Position numbers and translations under genes: made by a program. Below the pieces are notes generated by a model. The model saw only the letters and a program-made list of their open reading frames with translations, was not told where the DNA came from and searched no databases. Below, one piece after another: positions 17,904 to 20,880 of a stretch of DNA of 64,000 nucleotides (position 1 is the first letter of the stretch; each line of letters opens with the position of its first letter). The DNA comes from Dyella dinghuensis. GTDB taxonomy: Bacteria > Pseudomonadota > Gammaproteobacteria > Xanthomonadales > Rhodanobacteraceae. The stretch is taken from NCBI RefSeq assembly GCF_003977615.1, contig NZ_RYZR01000007.1, positions 186,001 through 250,000 on the forward strand, given 5' to 3'.

Positions 17904-18764
17904 TTAGTAGTGACCCGAGAACGGAATCATGCGGCGCAGAATCGACGGACGATGCGGCCAGTTCGGATCTTTCAGATACGGATGGTTCGGATAGTTCAGT
18001 GCAAGCACCTGACGCGTCTGCTCGGCCAGATCCTTCTGTCCCAGCGCCAGATAGCTGCGCGTCATGATGGCCAGCGCGTCGCCGGCTTCTGGCGCTTCCT
18101 GATAGTGCTCGATCACGTACTGGGCACGGTCGGCGGCAGCGACGTAGGCCTTGTTGCGAAGATAGAAATCGGCCACGTTGATTTCGAACTGCGCCAGGAT
18201 GTTGCGCAGGTAGATCATGCGCTGACGTGCATCGGCGGCGTAGGCGCTATCCGGGAAGCGGCGGCTCAGTTCCGAGAAATCGTCGAACGACTTCAGGTTG
18301 TAGCCCTGATCGCGGCGCGACTGCGCACCGGTGCGCTCGCCGGCGAATGCACGCTCGACAACGCCCGTCGTGCGATCGAAATTGATCAGACCGCGCAAGT
18401 AATAGGCATAATCCACATGAGGGCTGAGCGGATTGGTCTTGATGAAGCGGTTGATCGTGGAATACGCATCATCCGGCTTGTTGTTCTTGTATTGCGCGTA
18501 AGCCAGTTCCAACTGGGCCTGCTGATTGAACGGGCCAGATGGGAAGCGGGCGATCAAGCGCTGATATGCTTTCTCAGCCGCCGAATAATCGGAATGCATC
18601 AGATCGGTGTGTGCCTTGGCGTAAAGCTGAGGCAGCGGCAACGTGTCGAGCGGATCCCCTTTGCGGTGGAACCACGAGCAGGCGCTCATCGTCATCGCCA
18701 GGACGAGCACGATAAGTACTTTCAAAACAGGCGTCGAGATGACCGGCAGCTTGGTTACGCGCAT
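17904..18764 (-). CDS. bamD: Outer-membrane assembly lipoprotein BamD
   Basis: This 286-residue lipoprotein has a signal peptide with lipobox MSAC, giving Cys29 as the lipidated residue. It continues with tetratricopeptide-like helices typical of BamD/ComL (DYSAAEKAYQRLIARFPSGPF, then AYAQYKNNKPDDA and NPLSPHVDYAYYLRGL). BamD is an essential part of the BAM complex that inserts beta-barrel proteins. The ATG at 18764 gives a clean signal peptide; upstream in-frame starts would add about 33 unlikely residues. It is divergent from rluD, with the twin-hairpin element between them. Confidence 0.95.
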   Translation of the reverse strand: MRVTKLPVISTPVLKVLIVLVLAMTMSACSWFHRKGDPLDTLPLPQLYAKAHTDLMHSDYSAAEKAYQRLIARFPSGPFNQQAQLELAYAQYKNNKPDDAYSTINRFIKTNPLSPHVDYAYYLRGLINFDRTTGVVERAFAGERTGAQSRRDQGYNLKSFDDFSELSRRFPDSAYAADARQRMIYLRNILAQFEINVADFYLRNKAYVAAADRAQYVIEHYQEAPEAGDALAIMTRSYLALGQKDLAEQTRQVLALNYPNHPYLKDPNWPHRPSILRRMIPFSGHY

Positions 18765-18828
18765 GAGTAAGGGGTTCAGATGATTGAGCAAAAAGGGATG
18801 ATAGCCGAAACCGGCCTCCAGCCGGGGA

Positions 18829-19121
18829 TAAGGATGCTCTGATGAATTCTGTGCAGGTGGCATGATGTCCAGAAGGCTTGCGGGGTGTGGTGCGCGGCGC
18901 CGGGAAGACTGGCTGTCTTGCCAAGCCGCGCGGCGCAGCCTGCGAGCCTTCTGGACATCACCCCATCCTTTAAGTTCAGCATGTTGGGGCCGGCTTTATC
19001 CGTTCGCATCCCTTCGGTCCATCGTCTCGACAGACGGCCAGTCTGCCTTCGCCGATGGTCCTGTGGGCTGCGAACGGATAAAACCGGTGACACCTGCACA
19101 GAATTCATCAGAGCATCCTTA
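18829..19121. repeat. 293-bp pseudo-symmetric twin-hairpin element in the bamD-rluD gap
   Basis: Outer arms 18829-18859 and 19091-19121 are a perfect 31-bp inverted repeat. Inside, each separated from its arm by 3 bases, lie two hairpins of exactly 98 nt: A (18863-18960) and B (18990-19087), around a 29-nt centre that itself has CCCCA/TGGGG ends. A pairs over 16 perfect outer bases (TGATGTCCAGAAGGCT), B over 18 of 19 (CCGGCTTTATCCGTTCGCA). Their stems are unrelated in sequence, but both carry AGACTGGC(T/C)GTCT at the tip, at the same offset (44-56) when B is read on the opposite strand. The whole 360-base bamD-rluD gap has no coding potential. No flanking target duplication was seen. Confidence 0.9.
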
Positions 19122-19124
19122 AGC

Positions 19125-20099
19125 ATGACCACCATTCGTCACGAGGCAATCGTCCCCTTGTCGGCCGCAGGTCGGAGGTTCGACCAGGCATTGGCCGAGA
19201 TGTTCCCGGATTACTCCCGTTCCCGCCTGACGTCCTGGGTGAAGGACGGCGCGGTGACGCTGGACGGGGCCCCGGCCGCGCCACGCCATCTGCTGCGCGG
19301 GGGCGAGAAAGTGCAGCTGGAGGTGGAACTTGAGACCGAGGTGGCCAGCGCGCCGGAGGCGATCGCGCTGGATATCGTCTACGAGGACCCGCACCTGCTG
19401 GTGATGAACAAACCGGCTGGGCTCGTCGTGCACCCCGGTGCCGGCAACCCGGCGGGCACCGTGCTCAACGCGTTGCTGCATCACGACCCGAAGCTGGCGG
19501 AGCTCCCGCGCGGCGGCATCGTCCATCGACTGGACAAGGAGACCTCGGGCCTGATGGTGGTGGCGAAAACACTGGCGACCCACACGGCGCTGGTCGCGAT
19601 GCTGTCCCGGCACGACGTGGAACGGCAGTACGAGGCCATCGTGCTCGGCACGATGATCGCCGGCGGCACCATCGACGCGCCGATCGGCCGCCATATGGGC
19701 GATCGGCTGCGGCAGGCGGTGCGCGACGAAGAAGACGGCAAGCACGCCGTCACGCACTATCGTCTGCGCGAGCGTTTCCGTGCGCACATGCTTCTTCAGT
19801 GCAACCTCGAAACGGGGCGCACGCACCAGATCCGCGTCCATCTGTCGCACATCGGCCATCCGCTGATCGGCGATCCCCTCTACGGCGGCGGACTGAAGCT
19901 GCCCAAGCGCGCAACGCCGGAACTGGTTGCCGCGTTGCGCGGTTTCCGCCGACAGGCGCTGCACGCGGAGCGCTTGGCGTTCGAGCATCCCGTGACCGGC
20001 GAGCCGATGAGTTTCCAGGTACCGCGTCCGGCCGATATGGATGCGTTGATCGCGGCACTTCGCGAAGATCTTGCGGTCAATGGCCCGGACGATCATTGA
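19125..20099 (+). CDS. rluD: 23S rRNA pseudouridine synthase RluD
   Basis: This 324-residue protein has an N-terminal S4 RNA-binding domain ([19 protein letters not shown]) and a pseudouridine synthase domain with the catalytic motif HRLDKETSG (Asp137), followed by [10 protein letters not shown]. It modifies helix 69 of 23S rRNA at positions equivalent to 1911, 1915 and 1917 in E. coli. The ATG at 19125 matches the usual N-terminal length but has no visible Shine-Dalgarno: it begins 3 bases after the inverted repeat element, whose right arm would be its 5' leader. Confidence 0.96.
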
Positions 20100-20121
20100 C
20101 CTCGCGATCATTAATCCAACG

Positions 20122-20880
20122 ATGGTGCCGATGAACGACGCATGGATCTTCCCCGATTGGCCTGCGCCGAGCCGCGTGCATGCGGCCGTGACCACGCGTC
20201 ATGGCCCGGGCATTTCGCAGGCACCTTTCGAGCGTTTCAACCTCGGCTTGCGCAGTGGGGATGACGAACAAGCCGTGCGCAGCAATCGCAGCGCCCTGCG
20301 CCAGTCGCTGGATCTTCCCGCCGACCCCCGCTGGCTGCGGCAAGTGCACGGCACGGTCGCGGCGGAATTGGGGCCGCTGCCCAGCCGGGAAGAACCCGAG
20401 GCCGACGCCGCGGTATCGCGTGTGCCCGGCACGGTGCTGGCGATCCTCACGGCCGACTGTCTGCCCGTTTTGTTCTGCGCGGATGATGGCAACACCATCG
20501 GCGCTGCCCATGCCGGCTGGCGCGGACTGGCCGCCGGTGTGCTTGAGCAGACCATCGAGCAGATGCAGCGCCCGGCGTGCAAATTGATGGCGTGGATGGG
20601 GCCCTGTATCGGGGCCACGTCTTATGAAGTGGGCGATGAAGTCCGAAAGACCTTCATCGAACAAAACGCCGCGGCGAGTGACGCGTTCGTCGCGACGCGT
20701 CCGGGCCATTGGCAATGCGATTTGGCGGTACTGGCAAAACAGCGTCTTACCGCTGCCGGCATCACCCGTATCCACGGCGGCGGTTTCGACACCCGCACCG
20801 ACGAGCGCTTTTACTCCTATCGCGGCGAGGGCGCCCGCAGCGGCCGTTTTGCCAGCCTGATCTGGCTCGCCCAGAGCTAA
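20122..20880 (+). CDS. pgeF: Laccase-domain protein PgeF (YfiH), peptidoglycan editing
   Basis: This protein of about 252 residues belongs to the YfiH/PgeF family, with the metal-site motifs LTADCLPVLFC and HAGWRGLAAGV and the pattern MGPCIGATSYEVGDEV. Family members clear misincorporated L-Ser from peptidoglycan precursors; older names call them multicopper polyphenol oxidases. It follows rluD closely, an arrangement common in gammaproteobacteria. The start is uncertain: ATG codons at 20122 and 20131 are both possible and neither has a good ribosome site. Confidence 0.92.
   Translation: MVPMNDAWIFPDWPAPSRVHAAVTTRHGPGISQAPFERFNLGLRSGDDEQAVRSNRSALRQSLDLPADPRWLRQVHGTVAAELGPLPSREEPEADAAVSRVPGTVLAILTADCLPVLFCADDGNTIGAAHAGWRGLAAGVLEQTIEQMQRPACKLMAWMGPCIGATSYEVGDEVRKTFIEQNAAASDAFVATRPGHWQCDLAVLAKQRLTAAGITRIHGGGFDTRTDERFYSYRGEGARSGRFASLIWLAQS

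Follow-up and report, generated by a model that had tools for sequence, protein, structure and literature searches.

Between bamD and rluD of Dyella dinghuensis lies a 293-bp element that, judged from its sequence, is a gene-less MITE with the ends of an IS5-family IS found in relatives. The stretch in which it was detected, hereafter the window, comprises 64,000 nucleotides of contig NZ_RYZR01000007.1 (positions 186,001 to 250,000). Inside its ends, the element is built from two 98-nt hairpins on opposite strands, and this folded two-hairpin core itself seems to be what is kept when elements with different end sequences are compared. The reading that best accounts for the data as a whole, to which we assign a probability of roughly 75%, is an IS5-mobilised MITE with a conserved twin-hairpin core, in whose stems matching is renewed in place.

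The window copy reads, in order, 31-bp arm, 3-nt linker, hairpin A, 29-nt spacer, hairpin B, 3-nt linker and 31-bp arm. The left terminal inverted repeat (18829..18859, plus strand) is the perfect complement of the right one (19091..19121, minus strand), which stops 3 bases short of the rluD ATG at 19125, with no clear Shine-Dalgarno sequence just upstream of that ATG, as originally described. Within the left arm, the IS5-type end proper begins at the GG at 18832, and this type of end is also carried by IS5-family IS of relatives. The left target-site 4-mer, ATAA (18828..18831), has TTAA (19119-19122) as its counterpart, an imperfect pair in this copy. The linkers (18860-18862 and 19088-19090) connect the arms to hairpin A (18863..18960, plus strand; self-match at query positions 35-132), which is the half used to build wider searches, and to its pseudo-symmetric opposite-strand counterpart, hairpin B (18990..19087, minus strand; query positions 162-259). 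The apical motif of A, AGACTGGCTGTCT, was read directly and in alignment A1 at 18906..18918 on the plus strand (offset 44-56 of the hairpin); that of B, also read directly, occupies the same offset on the minus strand (19032..19044). Between the hairpins, the spacer (18961..18989) has a small stem of its own, and its position is taken in shorter copies and far relatives by CCC-TNCG-GGG or CCCGAAGGG. The 293 bases have a folding energy of -205.6 kcal/mol, whereas shuffled sequences average -110.0 (z -17.0), none of 200 reaching so low a value. The two open reading frames of the element (86 and 118 aa) match no Pfam family above cut-off, so there is no transposase gene inside. The neighbours are bamD, divergent, at 17904..18761 on the minus strand (TIGR03302, E 1.3e-75), and rluD, downstream, at 19125..20099 on the plus strand (NF008385, E 5e-127); the gene after rluD (20071-20877) encodes a multi-copper polyphenol oxidoreductase (PF02578, E 8.2e-71). 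The original prediction, made from the window letters, had described the perfect arms, the paired 98-nt hairpins, the linkers and the shared tip on opposite strands, all of which hold on direct reading; its layout omitted the 29-nt spacer with its small stem. Its statement that the stems are of unrelated sequence is correct for the window copy, but in wider relatives the minus-strand B often repeats the core of A.

Copies of the element are found well beyond the window. The D. dinghuensis genome yields 21 matches at E<=0.001, many of which are opposite-strand matches of the same copies; six copies, the window copy included, span at least 267 bp at 80-100% identity, and a seventh match (L007) has quite different arms. 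A search of related genomes with the 293-bp sequence, proposed together with the original prediction, returned matches in 24 of 61 genomes by blastn: the D. dinghuensis genome itself, all 15 of the other genus genomes, one of them (G008) through a single weak match (E 3.6e-4) and with no type I end, and 8 of 21 genomes from the family's other genera; none of 24 genomes from other families matched. The start of hairpin A was found in 48 stretches from Dyella, Rhodanobacter, Frateuria and bins, including one labelled Eremiobacteraeota. Copies in the same genome and in all genus genomes rule out a local palindromic accident. Plasmid and phage sequences contained no match for the window element; no match was found for the far element L290 in plasmids or phages, or for the far element L271 in plasmids. 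One IMG/VR contig of 46 kb contains the core pattern (L300:1108-1141).

Insertion sites were analysed by locating 106 end pairs in the fetched loci and scoring their flanking 4-mers. Perfect target duplications flank 28 of the 106 (14 CTAG/CTAG and 14 TTAA/TTAA), and identical 4-mers of any kind flank 30, leaving 76 without, the window copy (ATAA/TTAA) among them; identical 5-mers flank a single pair. Checking the orthologous bamD-rluD gaps, another step put forward with the original prediction, revealed the element upstream of rluD in only 1 of 16 genus genomes (blastn). The start of bamD is seen upstream of rluD in 11 genus loci, with a gap of ~70 nt, and element-free gaps carry CCGGGG shortly before the rluD start (e.g. 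L159-L162); in the window copy, the CCGGGG-bearing stretch is displaced 293 bases from rluD by the element. Two loci (L157 and L169) differ in sequence upstream of rluD, and two more (L158 and L166) were left out of this reading. Comparison of sites with and without the element indicates that it is an inserted, dispersed mobile element. Across species, the same intergenic gaps hold inverted or other-end copies (L024/L045, L062/L084, L064/L071), as if some gaps get reused. Two loci of genome G003 (L145:1986-2048 and L140 near 204) are reduced to the two terminal repeats back to back, forming short near-perfect palindromes.

The ends of the element point to its mobiliser. Of 16 genus genomes, 10 contain transposases of the PF01609 family; the D. 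dinghuensis genome gave no PF01609 match, so that its mobiliser is either absent or of a different type. Autonomous partners whose ends match were recovered from relatives as L172 (1141 bp), L174 (1204 bp) and L173 (1159 bp, end GGGAAACTCTGA), together with the shorter IS copies L182 (931 bp) and L189 (928 bp). The end sequence GGGATGCTCTGA, or one near it, is present at both ends of L172, L174, L182 and L189 and was seen at one end in L177, L181 and L194. The tested proteins of L172, L173 and L177 belong to the IS5 family (NF033581). Identical TTAG flanks L182 and L189 on both sides, and L172 and L174 have TTAG on one flank and CTAG on the other; some of the partner transposase genes are frameshifted or stop-containing. 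These IS resemble the element in their GGGATGCTCTGA-type ends and YTAR-type flanks, and in G003 an IS end matches the end of a MITE of the same genome (L072) over ~21 bases and once more at GGCATG. They differ in their interior, where R2, a covariance model of hairpin A described below, finds no A-type hairpin (15 loci; the one match is a separate element in L178). That A-type hairpin (L178:2561-2654, genome G007; 54.4 bits with R2) has a type I-like end and shares its locus with a PF01609 transposase of a 397-aa frame.

Carriers were found for type I ends, and none for types II, III and IV or the far elements. Searches with type II ends gave partial copies in G003 and no type II carrier; of the 161-aa PF01609 repeats in that genome (around L202 and L205), the L202 copy has one type II end ~0.3 kb away, pointing away from it. 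The element has the attributes of a MITE: it is short and multi-copy, is bounded by terminal inverted repeats and target duplications, lacks a transposase gene and has ends in common with an autonomous element. The same ends and YTAR target in relatives (L172, L173, L177; L182, L189) mark it as an IS5 derivative. Insertion of IS5 at CTAA or CTAG is stated in the consulted portion of one report (PMC11677980). The closest described counterpart, MITEPsy1 of Pseudomonas syringae pv. phaseolicola, is likewise an IS5-type MITE, with TCTGA in its terminal repeats, a 4-nt duplication, insertion at CTAG or YTAA and reported transposition; unlike the present element, it is 100 nt long, and the consulted portion of its report describes no twin-hairpin core (PMC3189936). 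The possibility of a mobile hairpin element, raised at the outset, is thus borne out by the copies, the target duplications, the element-free sites and the ends common to IS5-family IS.

The same core was found inside other ends with two covariance models of hairpin A, a search proposed in outline with the original prediction. R1 was built from 40 sequences (alignment A2, 40 of the 78 copies in A1) and R2 from 39 varied A hairpins (alignment A3), 10 of them of types I-III from A1. The window hairpin A (18860-18962), a member of both training sets, scores 113 bits with R1 and 106.9 bits with R2. Beyond the known copies, R1 identified five hairpins in D. dinghuensis (72-86 bits), which lie inside 266-268 bp elements with arms AGAGCC(T/A)G..., a different B and a central part reading CCCGAAGGG in three, CCCTTCGGG in one and CCCTACGGG in one. 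R1 matches 32 of 59 family genomes (19 of 26 genera). Across the order it matches 18 of 81 genomes, ten of which belong to other families; loci were read from six of these ten (all but G040, G111, G117 and G138). R2 matches 63 of 369 Gammaproteobacteria genomes, that of D. dinghuensis included, in 50 of 272 genera (E<=1e-4, with E-values that are rough owing to a short calibration), and the other 62 genomes all come from other orders.

Of 29 newly fetched far loci, 24 were read, from 24 of the 63 genomes; in the other five (L275, L281, L283, L297, L299) the match lies near a contig end. An outer exact inverted repeat of at least 10 bases encloses the core in 23 of the 24 (21 of 24 by a second method), in several unrelated-looking sequences, and the far element measures 259-272 bp in 14 of these 23. 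Different ends thus surround the same core in types I, II, III and IV, in other families of the order and in the far loci. Hairpin A contains both CAAGG(C/A) and AAG...AAC in all 24 far loci, against 0.5% of shuffles with the two together, a presence that is partly due to selection, since the core is contained in R2; the two patterns were, besides, composed with the sequences already in view. Hairpin B lay outside the search query, and its minus strand has both motifs in 15 of the 24. In 16 of 24, R2 also matches an opposite-strand B that adjoins A or follows it closely (E<=0.02). In the window, this model of A hairpins only matches B (18991-19087, minus strand) at 32.1 bits (E 2.6e-4), against 47.7 bits for the plain complement of A; palindromicity alone therefore contributes to such scores. 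Across the varied A hairpins, the core positions of the internal loops and of the apex are conserved. Of the 24 far loci, 19 have a central hairpin of the form CCC(2-4)GGG, whose loop is TNCG in 14, GAA in 4 and TGA in 1. Since UNCG tetraloops are very stable in RNA, as are GNA triloops in DNA, the central loop decides neither for RNA nor for DNA. No description of a twin-hairpin core, or of its carriage by different ends, was found in the titles and abstract openings searched, a scope outside which most subscription papers fall.

Pairing in the stems is maintained while their sequence changes. Alignment A1 comprises 78 full copies from 86 located loci; it leaves out L008, L068, L069, L081, L083 and L085 (duplicate, truncated or diverged) and L051 and L059 (insertions). 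RNAalifold predicts 104 pairs, of which 82 show changes on both sides, and 97.8% of cells are paired, figures favoured by the derivation of the structure from the same alignment; related copies are, moreover, not independent. On none of the five measures does any of 500 shuffles reach the observed value; with the partners slid by 1-3 columns, only 32.6-38.6% of cells stay paired. Covariation between copies, the proposed touchstone, is strong, and structure kept under differing sequence with opposite-strand pseudo-symmetry extends well beyond the window copy. Copies of one genome differ from one another, each being matched within itself. At three insertions with orthologous flanks (L009/L035, L014/L040, L018/L030), 25 double changes keep pairing, 2 break it and 22 changes are one-sided; matching has thus been renewed after insertion. 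In sister copies, double changes are adjacent 20 times against 11.2 expected, a value equal to the maximum of 500 simulations, to which uneven rates along the stems could contribute.

Renewed matching can arise by selection on a structure or by correction of one stem half from the other, and template-switch correction of inverted repeats is a mechanism described in the consulted part of a published study (PMC8794818). Reading covariation as proof of functional RNA is a long-standing difficulty, for which wobble polarity offers a way forward where many natural copies exist: selection on RNA pairing should bias one-sided changes on the functional strand towards G·U rather than A·C, a preference that DNA correction lacks. 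Events were counted by parsimony on a FastTree tree as one-sided changes from Watson-Crick states. The terminal repeats, with 187 double changes, show 29 GT against 22 AC events and look like products of template-switch correction in this lack of polarity. They serve as a warning that strong covariation can arise in transposon arms without an RNA-strand signal. In hairpin A, 92 GT events stand against 9 AC (outer A 26 vs 5; inner A 66 vs 4, the 66 being inflated by three pairs with U-G as commonest state, for which Watson-Crick-preferring parsimony adds GT gains), and this hairpin looks selected on the plus strand in the Dyella set. Hairpin B has 18 GT against 23 AC events in its outer and 2 against 13 in its inner part, so that inner B leans to the minus strand. 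Arm mismatches in the 24 far loci lack polarity (A, GT 51 vs AC 65; B, GT 38 vs AC 59) in a cruder form of the test that also counted conserved loop positions. RNA polarity is therefore not supported as a general rule, and the structured RNA that had been considered finds partial backing in hairpin A of the Dyella set but not in the far loci.

These counts bear directly on the rival that survives best, in which the core has no function beyond carriage, the stems are matched by template-switch correction only and the motif is shared by common descent. Terminal-repeat pairs that change in both halves without polarity, the clustering of double changes, the lack of polarity in the far loci and the published correction mechanism (PMC8794818, as far as consulted) all suit it. 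Correction alone, however, would not keep the conserved internal-loop and apical core positions unpaired, and the polarity of hairpin A in Dyella, outer A included, runs against it; we regard this rival as somewhat unlikely.

Unlikely, too, is a role of the twin hairpins in transposition itself, by which a cruciform, or binding of a host factor or the transposase, would raise mobility and be kept by selection. The two-fold pseudo-symmetry would suit a DNA complex, and the presence of the core within several terminal repeats agrees with such a role, as does the 259-272 bp length of 14 of 23 far elements. Against it, no more than 56-250 bp lie between the ends in 13 of the 106 pairs, in some cases with one hairpin or none, so the core is not strictly needed, unless these short forms are later deletions, which they may also be.

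For the MITE with a conserved core, the following sequence of events can be proposed. An IS5-family transposase would recognise outer ends of the GG(G)ATGCTCTGA type and insert the element into CTAG/TTAA (YTAR) sites. Within these ends, A and its opposite-strand counterpart B flank a small central hairpin, and in many relatives an A-type hairpin is the first to be met in the 5' to 3' direction on either strand. Given the several unrelated-looking terminal repeats, the core is probably carried by different transposases; ends may be exchanged between elements, the one carrier identified being that of type I. Stem halves would be re-matched in place, mostly via template switching during replication, and in Dyella the wobble polarity suggests that the A strand is additionally under selection, either as RNA or as single-stranded DNA. 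As to the role of the core, we tentatively suggest that a neighbouring transcript would yield one and the same hairpin, processed or shielding, whichever side it enters from, and that insertion beside genes would for this reason be tolerated in either orientation. It is also conceivable, at a similarly tentative level, that the elements form a class-wide gene-less superfamily whose heritable unit is the pseudo-symmetric core, swapping between transposase ends and working in cis, whichever way round it is inserted, as a device made of RNA or single-stranded DNA. Were the core indeed the conserved unit, some bacterial MITEs would carry a structured payload and be more than decayed IS ends, and this payload would persist across a whole class while its carriers change.

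Gene context was examined for class Ia, which holds 63 of 82 classed copies. With genes called by a simple codon model rather than taken from annotation, and with three orthologous site pairs among the copies, the orientation of the flanking genes across the element is plus in 24 cases and minus in 7. Of 49 right flanks in which a gene begins, 13 have an ATG at 0-5 nt from the right end; the corresponding figure for the left end is 2 of 28. We treat this orientation and ATG bias as a lead. Classes Ib and II (9 copies each) have no clear bias, and the flanks of different copies are mostly unrelated, few site pairs matching. Around the window element, no sigma-70 promoter or intrinsic terminator was found; a TGGACA-N17-TTCAAT-like stretch noticed by eye in the consensus spacer was dropped, as a scan of the window copy gave it no support. 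Kissing between loops A and B was also rejected: loop complementarity does occur in some copies, a consequence of the tips being inverted copies of each other, and variants such as L030 and L047 in A1 break it. No Rfam family reached its gathering score in the stretches tried, where only miRNA models appeared, far below it. A structured leader dedicated to the control of rluD or of a regulon, another early suggestion, could draw on the right arm stopping 3 bases before the ATG and on the class Ia start-codon bias, but the element's detection at rluD in 1 of 16 genus genomes, its target duplications and the mostly unrelated flanks make such a leader very improbable.

Least plausible of all is a REP/BIME-type element moved by a Y1 (RAYT) transposase, for which the inverted hairpin pairs and one Y1 transposase-like PF01797 match in D. 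dinghuensis (L250, G000:C1:144043-144315) could be invoked, but against which stand the long terminal repeats with 4-bp target duplications, hairpins of ~100 nt, ends common to IS5-family elements and the failure of R2 to find an A-type hairpin in 3.3 kb around the Y1 gene. REP/BIME repeats measure 20-40 bp and are not known to have terminal repeats with target duplication, and 98-nt hairpins inside 31-bp arms fall outside that group; Correia/NEMIS, ERIC, BOX and RUP elements differ from the twin-hairpin element in ends and targets. REP/BIME are alike in their paired hairpins of alternating orientation (PMC2817692, PMC3733652). Correia/NEMIS, ERIC, BOX and RUP are alike as short non-coding repeats with stable folds beside genes, and a core common to unrelated terminal repeats is not described for them in the portions consulted (PMC10969869, PMC2229807).

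In genome G012, four contig ends (L148, L149, L150 and L153) fall inside palindromic elements; draft assemblies can therefore break there, and copy numbers may be low. Repeats located at contig ends and right at start codons matter for both assembly and annotation.
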